64,000 nt of DNA, from contig NZ_VFQE01000001.1 in assembly GCF_006717095.1 (NCBI RefSeq), forward strand, positions 992,001 through 1,056,000, in the 5' to 3' direction. Shown here piece after piece: positions 22,266-28,408 of the stretch. The DNA comes from Blastococcus colisei (GTDB lineage: Bacteria > Actinomycetota > Actinomycetes > Mycobacteriales > Geodermatophilaceae). Position numbers and translations under genes: made by a program. How positions within the stretch are numbered: position 1 is the first letter of the stretch; each line of letters opens with the position of its first letter. The notes beneath the pieces are model-generated. The model did no database searches, was not told the origin of the DNA, and saw only the letters and a program-made list of their open reading frames with translations.

Positions 22266-22373
22266 ACGTGTGTCCACGGCAACGCAGCGTCGTTGGGGAT
22301 GCTTCCCACCTGTGTCCCTCCGGGCTGAGAGGATCAGCGGCGCACGACGGTCGTGATCCGGGAGGAGGCTCAG

Positions 22374-24401
22374 ATGTCGCAGACGGAATCCGTACGTCAC
22401 GGTACCGAGCCGGCCTCCCGCGCGGAGTCCGTCCTGGCCGCGCTCGACGAGGAGCAGCGCGAAGCCGCGCAGGCGGTCGTCGGGCCGGTGTGCATCCTCG
22501 CGGGTGCCGGCACCGGCAAGACCCGCACGATCACCCACCGGATCGCCTACGGCGTCCACACCGGTGTCTACGTGCCTGAGCAGGTCCTCGCGGTGACGTT
22601 CACCGCGCGCGCCGCCGGCGAGCTCCGTGGCCGGCTGGCGGCACTGGACGTCGGCGGCGTGCAGGCGCGGACCTTCCACGCCGCGGCGATGCGGCAACTG
22701 CGCTACTTCGCGCCGCGGGTGCTGGGCGGCCCCATGCCGTCGCTGGTCGAGAACAAGCTGCGCCTGGTGGCCACCGCCGCTTCCCGGTCCCGGCTGTCCA
22801 CCGACCGCACCAGCCTGCGCGACCTGGCCAGCGAGATCGAGTGGGCGAAGACCACGCTCGCCACGCCGGACGACTACCCGGCCCGCGCGGAGGCCGCCGG
22901 CCGGGAACCGCCGTTCGACGCCGCCGCGGTCGCCGCCGTGTACGCCAGCTACGAATCGGCCAAGCAGCGCGACGGGGCGCTGGACTTCGAGGACCTCCTG
23001 CTGGTGACCGCCTTCGCGATCGAGGAGCACCCGCAGGTCGCCCGCGAGGTGCGCACCCAGTACCGCCACTTCGTCGTCGACGAGTACCAGGACGTCAACC
23101 CGCTGCAGCAGCGGCTGCTCGACGCCTGGCTCGGCGGTCGGGCCGAGGTCTGCGTGGTCGGCGACCCGAACCAGACGATCTACTCCTTCACCGGCGCCGA
23201 TCCGGACTACCTGCTCGGCTTCGCCGACCGCTATCCCGACGCGGCAGTGGTCAAGCTGGAGCGGGACTACCGCTCCACCCCGCAGGTCGTCGGACTGGCC
23301 AACCGGTTGATCGGCCAGGCGCCCAAGCGCAAGGGTCTCCCCGGCCTCCGCCTGCTCGGTCAGCGCCCCGACGCCGGCGAGCCGACCTTCCACGAGTACC
23401 CCGACGAGCCGGCCGAGGCGGCCGCGGTGGCCGCGAAGTGCAATGCGCTGATCGACTCCGGGATGCCGGCGGCGGAGATCGCCGTGCTCTTCCGCATCAA
23501 CGCCCAGTCCCAGGTCTACGAGGCGGCGCTGGCCGACGTCGGGGTGCCGTACGTGCTCAAGGGCGGCGAGCGGTTCTTCGAGCGGCCCGAGGTCCGTGAG
23601 GCGGTGCTGCTGCTGCGGGGCGCGGCCGCGGGGGGCAGTGATCCGGGCGCCCTCGTGCCGACCGTCCGCGACGTCCTCGCGTCGGTGGGCTGGGCCGAGC
23701 ACCGGCCGCCGGCCGGCGGCGCGGCCCGCGACCGCTGGCAGTCCCTGGCCGCCCTCGTCGACCTCGCCGTCGACCTGGTGGCCGAGGACCCGACCCTCGA
23801 CCTCGCCGGGTTCGTCGGGCATCTCGCCGAGCGGGCCAACGCCCAGCACGCACCCACCGTCCAGGGCGTGACGCTCGCGTCGATGCACGCGGCCAAGGGC
23901 CTGGAGTGGGACGTCGTCTTCGTCGTCGGACTGGTCGACGGGGTGGTGCCGATCGCCCAGTCGCTGAGCCGGCCGGCCGCGGTCGAGGAGGAGCGCCGGC
24001 TGCTCTACGTCGCCGTGACCCGTGCCCGTGAGCACCTCTCGCTCTCCTGGTCGCTGGGCCGCAACCCCGGGGCCAAGCGGGCGCGCCCGCGCAGCCGGTT
24101 CCTGGACGGCCTGGCTCCGGGGTCCGGGCCCACCGCCCCGGTGGCCCGTCGGCCGGCCAAGCGGGCCAAGGTGGTCCTGGAGGGGGAGGCGGGGGAGCTC
24201 TTCGAGCGGCTCCGCGCATGGCGCAGCCAGGCGGCGCAGTCGGCGTCGGTGCCGGCGTACGTGGTCTTCACCGATGCGACGCTGCAGGCGATCGCCGAGA
24301 CCCGGCCGTCGACCCTGCGCGAGCTGTCCGGGCTCCCGGGGATCGGGGCCAGGAAGCTCGAGCTCTACGGCGAGGACGTGCTGGCCGCCGTCAGCGGCTG
24401 A
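22374..24401 (+). CDS. uvrD2: ATP-dependent DNA helicase UvrD2 with HRDC domain
   Basis: This 675-residue superfamily 1 helicase unwinds DNA 3' to 5'. Motifs in order: GAGTGKTRT near residue 47, DEYQDVNPLQQ, GDPNQTIYSFTG, YRSTPQVV, and HAAKGLEWD. The last 65 residues are an HRDC domain (TLRELSGLPGIGARKLELYG). Mycobacterial UvrD2 has a tetracysteine motif between motor and HRDC that supports unwinding; the matching linker here (about residues 575-605) has no Cys. ATG at 22374 follows GGGAGGAGG; an upstream GTG at 22353 lies before that ribosome site and is rejected. It is next to whiB7 as in mycobacteria. Confidence 0.93.
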   Translation: MSQTESVRHGTEPASRAESVLAALDEEQREAAQAVVGPVCILAGAGTGKTRTITHRIAYGVHTGVYVPEQVLAVTFTARAAGELRGRLAALDVGGVQARTFHAAAMRQLRYFAPRVLGGPMPSLVENKLRLVATAASRSRLSTDRTSLRDLASEIEWAKTTLATPDDYPARAEAAGREPPFDAAAVAAVYASYESAKQRDGALDFEDLLLVTAFAIEEHPQVAREVRTQYRHFVVDEYQDVNPLQQRLLDAWLGGRAEVCVVGDPNQTIYSFTGADPDYLLGFADRYPDAAVVKLERDYRSTPQVVGLANRLIGQAPKRKGLPGLRLLGQRPDAGEPTFHEYPDEPAEAAAVAAKCNALIDSGMPAAEIAVLFRINAQSQVYEAALADVGVPYVLKGGERFFERPEVREAVLLLRGAAAGGSDPGALVPTVRDVLASVGWAEHRPPAGGAARDRWQSLAALVDLAVDLVAEDPTLDLAGFVGHLAERANAQHAPTVQGVTLASMHAAKGLEWDVVFVVGLVDGVVPIAQSLSRPAAVEEERRLLYVAVTRAREHLSLSWSLGRNPGAKRARPRSRFLDGLAPGSGPTAPVARRPAKRAKVVLEGEAGELFERLRAWRSQAAQSASVPAYVVFTDATLQAIAETRPSTLRELSGLPGIGARKLELYGEDVLAAVSG

Positions 24402-24499: not shown

Positions 24500-24538
24500 T
24501 TAATTCGATTGACCCGGTTTCCGCCCACCCCCTACTGT
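24500..24538 (+). promoter_or_regulatory. Candidate whiB7 leader promoter
   Basis: An AT-rich stretch TTAATT (24500-24505) lies just upstream of a -35 box TTGACC (24509-24514). The -10 TACTGT (24533-24538) follows after 18 bases. An AT-rich element directly upstream of the -35 is characteristic of WhiB7-dependent promoters, which WhiB7 contacts with its AT-hook together with SigA. This fits autoregulation. Transcription would start near 24545, giving a 5' leader of about 500 bases. Confidence 0.7.
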
Positions 24539-24613
24539 CTCGCACACACGAGCCGCACCCCCACGCTCCTGGCCGTCCGGCCAGGGCCGATACCGAGGAA
24601 GGAGGGGGCACTG

Positions 24614-24907
24614 ATGATCAGCATGACGTGGACCACGGCCTCCGCCGATCTCCTCGGCCTGGGCGGTCTCGACGTGCGCCCGGTCTACGGCCCGGGCCTG
24701 TGCGCTGCCGTCGCCGAGCGTGCCGTGGCGCCCATCGCTGCGTTCGCCGCTCCGTCGCAGGGGACCGGTCTGCCCACCGGCGGCACCGCCGTCCGCCTCC
24801 GCCCCGTCACCCGGCAGGCCATCGGCCACGGCGTCGTGACCACCAAGACCTTCGAGAACAACGGCACCACCCTCGGGAACCACTCCTCGAGGAGACCGCA
24901 GAGCTAA
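24614..24907 (+). CDS. Upstream ORF in the whiB7 leader
   Basis: This 97-codon frame starts with ATG after AGGAAGGAGGGGG, a strong ribosome site, and ends 144 bases before whiB7. The peptide has no recognised domain. whiB7/wblC genes of actinobacteria are known to have translated leader ORFs whose interrupted translation allows read-through into the regulator gene. The stop codon at 24905-24907 sits in the loop of a possible antiterminator hairpin and 22 bases before a terminator hairpin, which is the arrangement expected for ribosome-controlled attenuation. The length is long for a leader peptide; part may be dispensable. Confidence 0.72.
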   Translation: MISMTWTTASADLLGLGGLDVRPVYGPGLCAAVAERAVAPIAAFAAPSQGTGLPTGGTAVRLRPVTRQAIGHGVVTTKTFENNGTTLGNHSSRRPQS

Positions 24908-24931
24908 GCGCTCGACCGGTCCTCCACGAGG
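24885..24931 (+). promoter_or_regulatory. Possible antiterminator hairpin around the leader ORF stop
   Basis: CCTCG (24885-24889), GGAG and ACCG (24891-24898) can pair with CGGT (24917-24920), CTCC (24922-24925) and CGAGG (24927-24931), with one bulged C and one A-A mismatch. The 18-base loop contains the leader ORF stop. The stem takes the first two bases of the terminator stem, so the two structures compete. A terminating ribosome at the stop would melt this hairpin. The pairing is read from sequence; its role is inference. Confidence 0.5.
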
Positions 24932-24975
24932 CCGCGGAACCCGAACCCCGGGATCCGCGGCCTTTCTCTTTGTCT
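24930..24975 (+). terminator. Intrinsic attenuator terminator upstream of whiB7
   Basis: GGCCGCGGA (24930-24938) pairs perfectly with TCCGCGGCC (24954-24962). Inside it CCC pairs with GGG across a GAACCCC loop. The T-rich run TTTCTCTTTGTCT follows directly, so this has both parts of a Rho-independent terminator. It lies between the leader ORF and whiB7, where read-through must be controlled. Confidence 0.8.
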
Positions 24976-25051
24976 GCGGCGCCCCGGCACCGACTTCCGG
25001 TCGGCGGACCTCCGCCGGCCGTCGTAGACGAGAGAACGAGGAGGAGCGGCA

Positions 25052-25393
25052 GTGCAGCAGACGATCGCCCACCCGACGTCCCACCGCCGACCCGGGCTCC
25101 CCTGGACCGGGGACTTCCCGCCGAGACGACCCACGCCACTGGCTCCCGTGCCGGTACGGCGCCCCCTGCCGTGCCGAGTGGAGGACCCGGAGCTGTGGTT
25201 CGCCGAGAGCCCGGCCCTGCTCGACCAGGCCAAGAGCCTGTGCGGGGAGTGCCCGATCCGCGACGCCTGCCTGGCCGGCGCCCTGGACCGGGGCGAGCCG
25301 TGGGGTGTCTGGGGCGGCGAGATCTTCGAACGCGGCGCCGTCATCGCGCGGAAGCGCCCGCGGGGCCGTCCCCGCAAGGTCGTGGCCGCCTGA
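25052..25393 (+). CDS. whiB7: WhiB7-type iron-sulfur transcription factor
   Basis: This 113-residue protein has the four WhiB cluster ligands C41, C64, C67 and C73, the GVWGG turn at 85-89 and an RGRPRK AT-hook at 104-109, which is specific to WhiB7 (WblC). WhiB7 binds SigA and activates intrinsic antibiotic-resistance genes when translation is disturbed. The GTG at 25052 follows GAGGAGGAG. The leader contains an upstream ORF and an attenuator. Its position between uvrD2 and the ABC1 kinase matches mycobacteria (Rv3197A, from memory). Confidence 0.95.
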   Translation: MQQTIAHPTSHRRPGLPWTGDFPPRRPTPLAPVPVRRPLPCRVEDPELWFAESPALLDQAKSLCGECPIRDACLAGALDRGEPWGVWGGEIFERGAVIARKRPRGRPRKVVAA

Positions 25394-25458: not shown

Positions 25459-25623
25459 ATGTACATGCTCGAACAGGATCTGGCCCGCAGCCGGATGGGT
25501 GAGATGCAGGCGGAGGCCGCCGCGGCCTCGCGTGCTCGTCGCCTCTACCTGGCCCGCCGCGCGGCTCGTCGCGCGGAGCGTGCGGTGCGCCGCGCCGCGC
25601 GGGCCAGCGCCGCCGTCTACTGA
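25459..25623 (+). CDS. Small arginine/alanine-rich protein after whiB7
   Basis: This 54-residue protein starts at ATG with AGAAGGA seven bases upstream. The N terminus MYMLEQDLARSRM is followed by one long basic helix (RRLYLARRAARRAERAVRRA). Its charge pattern suggests nucleic-acid or ribosome binding, but no family is recognised. It lies 65 bases after whiB7 on the same strand and before a strong hairpin, so it is probably co-transcribed and under the same attenuation control. That link is inference. Confidence 0.7.
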   Translation: MYMLEQDLARSRMGEMQAEAAAASRARRLYLARRAARRAERAVRRAARASAAVY

Positions 25624-25640: not shown

Positions 25641-25685
25641 GAGGCCGGGTCACGGACGCTTCTGGTGTGTCCGTGACCCGGCCTC
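25641..25685 (+). terminator. Strong 17-bp hairpin ending the whiB7 unit
   Basis: Bases 25641-25657 pair perfectly with 25669-25685 around an 11-base loop, 17 bases after the stop of the small basic protein. No T-run follows, which is common for actinobacterial terminators. It probably ends the whiB7 transcript. Confidence 0.75.
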
Positions 25686-25875: not shown

Positions 25876-27198
25876 TCACTCGACGAAGCCGGGGAGCCAT
25901 TCCTCGAGGACGCTCCGGAAGTCGCCGGCGGCGTCGAGCTGGCAGAGCACCCCGATGGAGCCGATCGTCACCCGGTGGATCAGCAGGTACGCCGGCGGCA
26001 GATTCAACTGACGGCCGAGCCGGCTGGCGTCATTGCGCGGGTCGGCGATGCGGGCGGCCTGCTCCTGCATCCAGGCCCGGGTGAAGTGGAAGTGCCGGGA
26101 CGCGACCGGCTCCATCAGGGGACGGACGAAGTCGAGGACCCCCTGGGGATCGACCTCCATCGACGGCCGTACGAAGCCCTCGAGACGCAGGTCGGCGAGC
26201 ACCTCGTCGGCCTTGCCGGCCAGCGCCCACCGCAGCAGCCGGCCGATCGGCTCCGGGTGGCCGTCCGGCAGCCGCGCGGTGGCCCCGAAGTCGATGACGC
26301 CGAGCCGACCGTCGGGCAGCAACCGGAAGTTTCCCGGATGTGGGTCGGCGTGCAGCATGCCCGCCCGCTGCGGACCGGAGAAGTGCAGCACCGCCAGCAG
26401 GTGTCCGGCGCGGTCGCGCTGCTCGCGGGTGCCGTCGGCGATGACCCGTGAGAGCGGTGTGCCGTCCAGCCATTCGGAGACGATGACCTTCGGCGCGCTG
26501 GCCACGACGCGCGGGACCCGGATCTGGTCGTCACCGGCGTAGGCGGCGGCGAAGGCCCGCTGCGCGTCGGCCTCCAGTCCGTAGTCCAGTTCCTCGACGA
26601 CGCGCGCCTTGAGCTCGGCGATCAGCGGCTTGACGTCCATGCCGGGGAAGAGGGCGGCGAACAGGCGCGCGAACCGGGCCAGCTGGTTGAGGTCGGCCAT
26701 GAGCGCCGTCGCCGCGCCGGGGTACTGGATCTTCACGGCGACGTCCCGGCCGTCGCGCCAGGTCGCGCGGTGGACCTGGCCGATGCTGGCCGCCGCCGCC
26801 GGCTGGTCGTCGAACTCGGCGAACCGCGTGCGCCAGCTTCCGCCGAGCTGCTGGGCGAGCACCGCGTGCACGGTGCGCGCCGGCATCGGGGGCGCCTCTT
26901 CCTGCAGCTTCACGAGGGCCTCGCGGTAGGGCGCCGCGACTTCCTCGGGAACCGCCGCCTCGAACACCGAGAGGGTCTGGCCCAGCTTCATCGCCCCGCC
27001 CTTGAGCTGGCCCAGGACAGCGAACAGCTGCTCCGCCGTCCGCTGCTGCAGCTCGGCGGCGACGGCGTCGGCGTCACGGCCGGAGAGCCGCTTGCCGAGG
27101 CCCAGGGTGGCGCGGCCGGCGGCCCCGAGAGGGAGGGAGGCCAGCCGGGCGGTCCGGGAGACCGAGCCTCGCGGCATCACCGGTCCGTCGTCACTCAC
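25876..27198 (-). CDS. ABC1/UbiB-family atypical kinase
   Basis: This 440-residue protein belongs to the ABC1 (AarF/UbiB/ADCK) kinase-like family. The family KxGQ motif appears as MKLGQTLS near residue 65, followed by the Ala-rich nucleotide loop [12 protein letters not shown] and the VAIK-type lysine in [19 protein letters not shown] carries the catalytic loop and VIDFGA the metal-binding Asp. These proteins act mainly on lipid or quinone metabolism as ATPases. GTG at 27198 follows GAGGAGGAT. It is the counterpart of the kinase next to whiB7 in mycobacteria. The actual substrate is unknown. Confidence 0.9.
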
Positions 27199-27265
27199 GC
27201 ATCCTCCTCGCCGCCGGACGCCCCGCGGCGCCCTCCGTCTCGTCTCGGTGAACTCGCGAGCCCGG

Positions 27266-28408
27266 TCAGCCGCCCATTGTTCCCTGCCGGAGGCCGTCTG
27301 CGCCCGCAGGAGGCGTCGCCGGATCGCTCGCGCGGGTGGCAGGAGCGCCGGTCCCGCTCGTGGGGACGGCGTCCCCACCCGCACCACAGTGGCAGCCGCG
27401 GTGGGCCGGCCAGCGCCGCATCCGTGGCGTGAGGTGAGGAGGGCGCAGCTCGACGGTGGCTTCCAGGACCCCCGGTGCCGCGGAGCCGTCGAGATAGGCG
27501 AGCACCTGCAGCGCCGCGGTGGCGGCGGTGAGCAGGCAGGTGATCGTGGAACCGCTCGGCGGTGGCTCGCCGGCCGTCAGCTGAGCCGCCAGCCGCGGCC
27601 AGCGTGGGTCCGCGTCACGGCGGTGCAGATCGGCGCAGTGCAGGCAGCTGGTCACCCCGGGGACGACGAGCGGACCGACCACGCCCGTCTCGCCGCGGAC
27701 CGTCGCCACCAGATGGGGCACTCCGGCGCGCTGGATCCCGGCCACCAGTGGATCGGAGGCGGCCCACGGCCGGGCCAGGACCACCAGGTCGGCGCCGGCG
27801 TGCGACGGCAGCGGCCGGAGGTCGGTGAGCGGGCTCGCGCGACGCACCGCGTCCGCGGCGGCCAGCGCGCGCGGCCGTCCCTCGTCGGCGGCGCTCAGGC
27901 CCCCGACGACGGCGTCCCCGGCCGCGGTGAGCCCGGGATCGCGAACGGTCACCCGGCCGACGCCGCTCGCGGCCAGCATCGCCGCCAGGGGAGTGCCCAC
28001 GCGCGTGGCGCCTTCCACCACGACCACCGCCTGCCGCCGTGCGCGCCAACCGCCGGGTCGCGCCACCGCAGCAGGCAGCTCCGGAGCGGTGCGCGCGGCG
28101 GCTGCGGGGCCGGCGGCCGCGGCCAGCAGGTCACCGGCGTCCAGGTCCACGAGCAGTCCGGCGGCCCGCAGGCCGTCCAGGACACCCGCCACCATGCCGG
28201 GATCGAGCCCGTCCCGGGCGGCGTCTCCCAGGACGGTCCGCTGGGCCCGCCGTCCGTCCAGCCCGCGCAGCAGGGCGACCACGTCGGCTCCGTCCGGGCC
28301 CAGCACTAGGCCGTCGCGCGCGTCGACGCCGCCCACCTGCACGCCGTCGGCGCCGTCGTGCAGCAGGGGGGTGGCGGCCGGGAGCAGGGGATGTGCGGAG
28401 TCACTCAC
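27266..28408 (-). CDS. ThiF-like/TOMM-type E1-fold protein, uncharacterised
   Basis: This 380-residue protein resembles the ThiF/YcaO-partner (cyclodehydratase leader-peptide-binding) family and the uncharacterised mycobacterial neighbour Rv3196. The N-terminal 30-95 region is winged-helix-like. Residues 125-250 form a Rossmann-like domain ([19 protein letters not shown]) in which the Gly-rich nucleotide motif of true E1 enzymes is weak. CLHC at 255-258 and CHC at 339-341 could form a zinc site. No YcaO gene or precursor peptide is seen nearby, so thiazole/oxazole peptide synthesis is not supported. It is transcribed toward the ABC1 kinase 67 bases away, likely in one operon. Confidence 0.75.

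Follow-up and report, generated by a model that had tools for sequence, protein, structure and literature searches.

The window analysed here, a stretch of 64,000 nucleotides (C1:992001-1056000) of the 5.16-Mb Blastococcus genome, contains a whiB7 gene preceded by a promoter and a long leader, which comprises a small 5′ hairpin, an upstream open reading frame (uORF) with its own Shine-Dalgarno sequence (SD) and a predicted intrinsic terminator (Table 1). The gene downstream of the leader is, by its sequence, a whiB7 orthologue combining a Wbl domain with an AT-hook: the product scores 56.3 bits against the Pfam model Whib, above the cut-off of 23.6, and 16.1 bits against AT_hook, slightly below the cut-off of 17.4, the motif RGRPRK being read directly in the sequence. 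Matches to whiB7 at E≤1e-20 occur in 107 of the 112 genomes of Geodermatophilaceae (the family, in all counts below) and in 147 of the 150 genomes of the order. The neighbours are a UvrD-type helicase and an ABC1-type kinase, the best NCBIfam match of the latter being the macrolide-binding ATPase MABP-1 (537.8 bits against a cut-off of 800); both genes also flank whiB7 in M. tuberculosis.

Table 1. Features of the whiB7 locus, in window coordinates.
Feature	Position	Strand	Description	Basis
UvrD-type helicase with HRDC domain	22353-24401		Upstream neighbour of the leader	
whiB7 promoter	24500..24538	+	TTAATT (24500-24505), 3 nt, -35 TTGACC (24509-24514), 18 nt, -10 TACTGT (24533-24538)	Read from sequence
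5′ leader hairpin	24568..24585	+	CCTGGCC-GTCC-GGCCAGG, between transcription start and uORF SD	
SD of uORF	24599..24608	+	AAGGAGGGGG	Sequence
Leader ORF (uORF)	24614..24907	+	ATG 24614 to TAA 24905-24907, 97 codons	
Early hairpin	24871..24892	+	Predicted in the terminator state	MFE fold of 24865-24963
Extended anti-terminator (predicted)	24873..24944	+	Includes hairpin 24885-24931	Folds
Stop-codon hairpin	24885-24931		uORF stop codon in loop; -25.7 kcal/mol, z -4.0	
Intrinsic terminator (predicted)	24928..24975	+	Stem 24928-24964; interrupted T-tract TTTCTCTTTGTCT, 24963-24975	Fold
whiB7	25040..25393	+	SD GGAGGAG 25040-25046, GTG start 25052, 113 aa, AT-hook RGRPRK	
Small Arg/Ala-rich ORF	25460-25621 plus stop	+	54 aa, just 3′ of whiB7	
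Hairpin 3′ of small ORF	25641-25685	+	19 bp with one G.U pair, without T-run; -44.1 kcal/mol, z -7.85	
ABC1-type kinase	25876-27387	-	Opposite strand, adjoins whiB7	

The small ORF that follows whiB7 looks, on sequence grounds, like a conserved gene. Such an R-rich ORF was found by script in 95 of 103 family loci, and its profile matches the DNA 3′ of whiB7 in 41 of 98 further loci, some of them from the large-genome group f31 (probably Streptomycetaceae) and seven of them family duplicates; its pN/pS ratio is 0.24 (24 pairs). Searches of Pfam and NCBIfam return nothing above cut-off for it, and no paper title concerns it among the matches listed in the literature search. The hairpin 3′ of the small ORF possibly ends a whiB7-small ORF unit, facing the convergent kinase gene.

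The promoter displays an AT-rich element before the -35 box, as the first-pass annotation had described, and this arrangement recurs in relatives. Of 100 family loci, 87 have the -35 sequence TTGACC ahead of the uORF and 13 lack it there; in 85 of these 87 loci a hexamer with at least five A/T positions out of six ends 3 nt before TTGACC, TTAATT itself being that hexamer 54 times, and in 83 of the 87 a TANNNT also follows after 17-19 nt, a first promoter listing having used a scoring that favoured A/T. The strict promoter pattern has a single occurrence in the whole genome, at the whiB7 leader. A simple consensus scanner, which accepts a promoter with set bases and no fewer than 9 of 12 positions matching TTGACA/TATAAT, and a terminator with a loop of 3-8 nt, reported neither the whiB7 promoter nor the terminator. 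The predicted activator element, 3 nt before the -35 box, occupies the position of the WblC box, which in Streptomyces reads GAAAWY and precedes the -35 box, according to the excerpts of PMC7157823; its letters, TTAATT, are not those of the Streptomyces box.

Several near relatives carry hairpins similar to the one in the 5′ part of the leader, some with paired changes, as in L008, where GGCC/GGCC has become GGCT/AGCC. A perfect hairpin of 6 bp or more occurs in 44 of 72 family leaders, a count made without a chance control and not always referring to the 24568-24585 element, and the stability of that stretch in the window is not above that of shuffled sequences (z -0.13). With respect to known whiB7/wblC leaders, the hairpin before the SD may be a difference of detail.

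The uORF and its strong ribosome site, both proposed earlier, are read directly from the sequence, and their counterparts are nearly ubiquitous in the family. Of 102 family loci, 97 have a strong SD ahead of the uORF and 100 were scored as having a qualifying uORF, that is, an SD-led frame that comprises 35 or more codons and stops 10-40 nt short of the terminator, compared with 2.6% of 1020 dinucleotide shuffles; outside the family, in sets that contain near-duplicates (L031 and L212, for example, are the same genome), the corresponding figures are 82 of 90 loci and 4.0% of 900 shuffles. The two family misses, L110 and L114, do carry uORFs of 71 and 63 codons and were scored as lacking one because the picking script took another hairpin; L007, with 106 nt of upstream sequence, was excluded from the counts. 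Apart from these two, uORF lengths in the family extend from 64 to 134 codons with a median of 102 (n=107, including seven named duplicates, the start codons being chosen by script); the ranges of the other sets are (i) 53-122 codons for the remaining families of the order (n=24), (ii) 42-109 codons in a named set (n=21), and (iii) 43-172 codons in other orders of the class (n=34). The earlier suggestion that the long ORF may make this a variant mechanism fails, because 97 codons is a usual length. In family loci, 19-28 nt separate the stop codon from the picked terminator stem, and the uORF peptide matches no Pfam or NCBIfam family above cut-off.

Between the uORF and whiB7, a Rho-independent terminator is predicted by folding. 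Its stem comprises an 11-bp outer part and a 4-bp inner part separated by an A.A mismatch (-30.5 kcal/mol, z -5.6); the terminator previously placed before whiB7 is thus present, but with 11+4 instead of 9+3 bp and with an interrupted T-run. The core GGCCGCGGA..TCCGCGGCC is near-invariant across 96 family rows. Outside the family, among 76 distinct hairpins anchored on their 5′ letters (five loci whose picked hairpin lacks the anchor being dropped), pair 4 is GC in 61, AT in 13 and otherwise in 2, and pair 5 is CG in 70, TA in 3 and otherwise in 3.

The hairpin carrying the leader stop codon in its loop is found where it had first been noted, and it is included in an extended anti-terminator, predicted by modelling to be built from overlapping uORF and terminator sequence. 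In this structure UCGGG (24873-24877), within uORF codons 87-88, pairs with CCCGA (24940-24944) of the terminator 5′ arm, and CC (24880-24881) pairs with GG (24936-24937). RNA 24865-24950, ending before the terminator 3′ arm, folds into the anti-terminator (-37.6 kcal/mol, z -4.65, 0 of 200 shuffles as low), whereas the addition of that arm (RNA 24865-24963) gives the terminator together with two small upstream hairpins (-54.6 kcal/mol, z -6.45); the early hairpin is predicted to compete with the 5′ arm of the anti-terminator. The two hairpins had been described as sharing two bases, and an overlap does exist, but that figure understates their exclusivity, because the predicted anti-terminator takes 9 of the 17 bases of the terminator 5′ arm.

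The same pair of conformations is widely distributed. Most of 38 hand-picked class representatives show both, the full RNA lacking a clean terminator fold in L104, L212 and L251. Among the distinct sequences for which uORF and terminator had both been located by script (94 in the family, 76 outside), the pre-terminator RNA has a mean z of -3.88 in the family and -3.64 outside, and the stop codon falls within a short hairpin in 94/94 and 73/76, respectively, a count made without shuffle control. The full RNA folds the terminator in 93/94 family and 65/76 outside sequences (the other 11 of the 76 do not), and the fraction of the terminator arm paired upstream is 0.60 in the family and 0.69 outside, against 0.43 and 0.45 in shuffles.

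Coadaptation of the arm was addressed by a swap test for which a single locus was picked by hand in each of 35 families, out of 47 family labels encountered. The own arm averages -17.62 kcal/mol versus -15.75 for foreign arms, with 0 of 20000 permutations as low; it beats half or more of the foreign arms in 26 of the 35 families and 90% or more of them in 14, and in nine families it is not better than half. The outer helix in the window itself is weak: it contains two A.A mismatches, reaches -12.3 kcal/mol, and 24% of foreign arms do as well. Family members show no special complementarity between uORF tail and arm: on average 45% of other uORF windows pair as well, and the tail is the best-pairing window in 2 of 85 cases.

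RNAalifold on 91 mixed family rows yields no anti-terminator, because subclades are probably offset by 1-2 bases. The rows were divided into A3 (63 rows) and A4 (25 rows), leaving out L027, L104 and L107. A3 displays 95.2% paired cells versus at most 52.2% when slid; no pair is changed on both sides in this close set, and its covariation score lies below every shuffle because the set hardly varies. A4 displays three doubly changed pairs, no more than shuffles, and nine such cells, a value reached in 1 of 500 shuffles. The covariation proposed earlier as a check on both stems is seen in part, as paired changes of the terminator outside the family, but little or none appears for the anti-terminator in the close alignments.

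The spread of the element across the class was followed with a covariance model that combines the 96 family rows of A1 and RNAalifold's own structure, which is mainly the terminator. The Blastococcus genome gives one match (E 1.4e-20), accompanied by a weak opposite-strand echo at the same place, the next match elsewhere having an E of 0.31 (150 of 12855 first-look candidates scored). At E≤0.1 the model has matches in 45 of 59 class genomes. In 44 of these 45 genomes the best match precedes the whiB7 match by 43-302 nt on the same strand, and the remaining one (E 0.05) belongs to a genome without a whiB7 match. A whiB7 match exists in 52 of the 59 genomes, and in eight of them, four belonging to f8, the model matched nothing. 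G031 and G150, which the family model does not reach, belong to f8 (probably mycobacteria); their leaders, L212 and L214, display a variant stem, GGCCACGG/CCGTGGCC, and the uORF tail of these leaders carries GTCCGTGG, able to pair with the 5′ arm of that stem. Rfam 15 over the window returns two tRNAs only above the gathering score, and the leader gives three matches, all far under it.

The uORF combines a kept frame with a drifting peptide. In close pairs (identity of at least 0.85), 33 of 47 indels in the uORF body are divisible by three, the corresponding counts being 28 of 138 for the spacer that precedes whiB7 and 14 of 100 for the upstream region; with identity relaxed to 0.80, they become 60/127, 29/147 and 25/167, respectively. 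The GC content by codon position (70.7/64.9/90.1%) is coding-gene-like and similar to that of whiB7. On the other hand, pN/pS for the body is 0.94 versus 0.35 for whiB7 in the same 24 close pairs, and the differences are even across codon positions (201/220/215). These counts are uncorrected, and the strong GC bias restrains synonymous change, equally in the two control genes; the 24 pairs are the closest of 46 non-overlapping pairs from a larger run of 1115 pairs (median 1.04), which included distant, poorly aligned pairs. Across the 63 A3 loci the pN/pS of the tail is 1.20, and third codon positions differ less than first ones, so that, third positions being as fixed as the others, the tail is kept as RNA. 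With the frame kept and the body nearly neutral, translation and frame therefore matter and the peptide apparently does not, a sequence pattern that suggests a meter of ribosome progress and not an arrest peptide. Among the matches listed in the literature search, no title concerns selection acting on the whiB7 uORF peptide; the primary papers of 2018, 2022 and 2024 may treat it.

These data bear directly on what the leader ORF could be instead. According to an erm-like alternative, it is a sequence-specific arrest peptide that senses particular drugs, the switch being set by a stall at a fixed codon. The last ~12 residues (TTLGxHSSRRPQS) are indeed alike in near relatives, but the reading is very unlikely: the pN/pS of the body is far above those of whiB7 and the small ORF in the same 24 pairs, the tail conserves its third positions, as RNA pairing predicts, and peptide tails vary between families while uORF, stop and terminator stay. 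The erm-type class was consequently set aside, no motif under amino-acid selection being found in the body (0.94) or the tail (1.20). Classical amino-acid attenuation, in which repeated codons of one kind register a shortage of the corresponding amino acid, might draw on alanine, the commonest residue of family uORF bodies (18.2%, without a genome-wide baseline), and on the induction of whiB7 by alanine starvation announced in the title of one paper; it is nevertheless highly improbable, given that no single-codon run precedes the hairpin, that a broad range of residues is used (A, G, T, V, P, L, R) and that the body drifts freely. The trp/ilv-type class was likewise rejected, the leader peptide containing no regulatory codon run next to the switch. 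Least credible of all, with almost no probability left to it, is an ordinary small protein gene followed by a fixed terminator with basal read-through and no switching, since the length of the ORF and its strong SD are opposed by a peptide body without visible selection, by the 19-28 nt between stop codon and stem in the family, and by an anti-terminator fold that is conserved and coadapted with the terminator arm.

The locus is thus very probably a ribosome-controlled transcription attenuator for whiB7. RNA polymerase would start shortly after the -10 box, followed by ribosomes along the 97-codon ORF. A ribosome that finishes the ORF would sit at the stop codon and cover the 5′ arm of the anti-terminator, so that the terminator, some 20 nt beyond the stop, could then fold and transcription would end near 24970; the stop-to-stem distance in the family would allow a ribosome at the stop both to free the terminator and to cover that arm. 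When ribosomes are slowed, stalled or not initiating, the last codons of the ORF would stay free, RNA 24873-24944 would form the predicted anti-terminator, taking up the terminator 5′ arm, and the polymerase would read on into whiB7. The WhiB7 produced would then probably stimulate its own promoter by way of the AT-rich element beside the -35 box, as family knowledge implies. The switch logic of the first-pass annotation thereby agrees with the anatomy, the conservation and the published whiB7/wblC mechanism; its qualification as a length variant does not stand.

Attenuators of this type, with whiB7/wblC uORFs, have reportedly been described in mycobacteria and Streptomyces by Lee, Lee and Roe in 2022 and by Burian and Thompson in 2018. 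As described in excerpts of PMC10727445, PMC11550727, PMC9618640 and PMC4128351, those attenuators share with the Blastococcus leader (i) the whiB7 target, a long leader and an SD-led uORF, (ii) a Rho-independent terminator 3′ of the uORF, (iii) an anti-terminator formed from overlapping uORF and terminator sequence, and (iv) an element before the -35 box; no essential difference was found at the level of these features, TTAATT in the place of GAAAWY being a detail. Excerpts of PMC10727445, PMC11550727, PMC9618640 and PMC13393426 describe whiB7/wblC uORF attenuation in which a stalled ribosome leads to an anti-terminator and read-through, and those of PMC4128351 report that transcriptomes of M. 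bovis and M. marinum show attenuation at the whiB7 uORF. Two other systems are related. The ilvB/ilvBNC uORF attenuators of Corynebacterium and M. tuberculosis resemble the Blastococcus leader in that leader translation chooses between terminator and anti-terminator, but they reportedly rely on a short ORF and branched-chain amino acid supply, whereas the Blastococcus leader is long and without a codon run. The leaders of the ARE ABCF genes tiaA and are5sc (S. coelicolor) also respond to ribosome-targeting drugs, which relieve premature termination via a uORF, but these uORFs comprise 3-9 codons and stalling occurs at the start codon, according to the excerpts of PMC12421871. The mechanism is already published, and the Blastococcus leader displays its testable anatomical features, the activator box in position only. 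The literature search returned nothing on whiB7 in Blastococcus, and no title on the Geodermatophilaceae whiB7 leader among the matches listed, although the primary papers of 2018, 2022 and 2024 may cover it.

The whiB7 attenuator emerges as one element, associated with a single gene and present in the majority of the sampled class genomes, though no Rfam 15 family matches it in this window. Given the near-neutral evolution of the peptide body, the ORF probably monitors ribosome progress in a general way, along its first ~80 codons or so, and does not act as a specific arrest peptide. A more specific proposal, advanced tentatively and held at somewhat less than even chances, is that the uORF acts as a peptide-independent ruler that counts ribosome failures anywhere within ~80 codons, its length setting the sensitivity; selection may then keep the long open frame, the SD, the position of the stop codon and the RNA of the last ~12 codons, but not the peptide. 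The combination of a kept frame with a drifting peptide allows a clear test, contrasting ORF length and openness with amino-acid sequence, of why whiB7 answers many ribosome stresses. If true, the ruler would explain the induction of whiB7 by chemically unrelated ribosome drugs and by amino-acid starvation.
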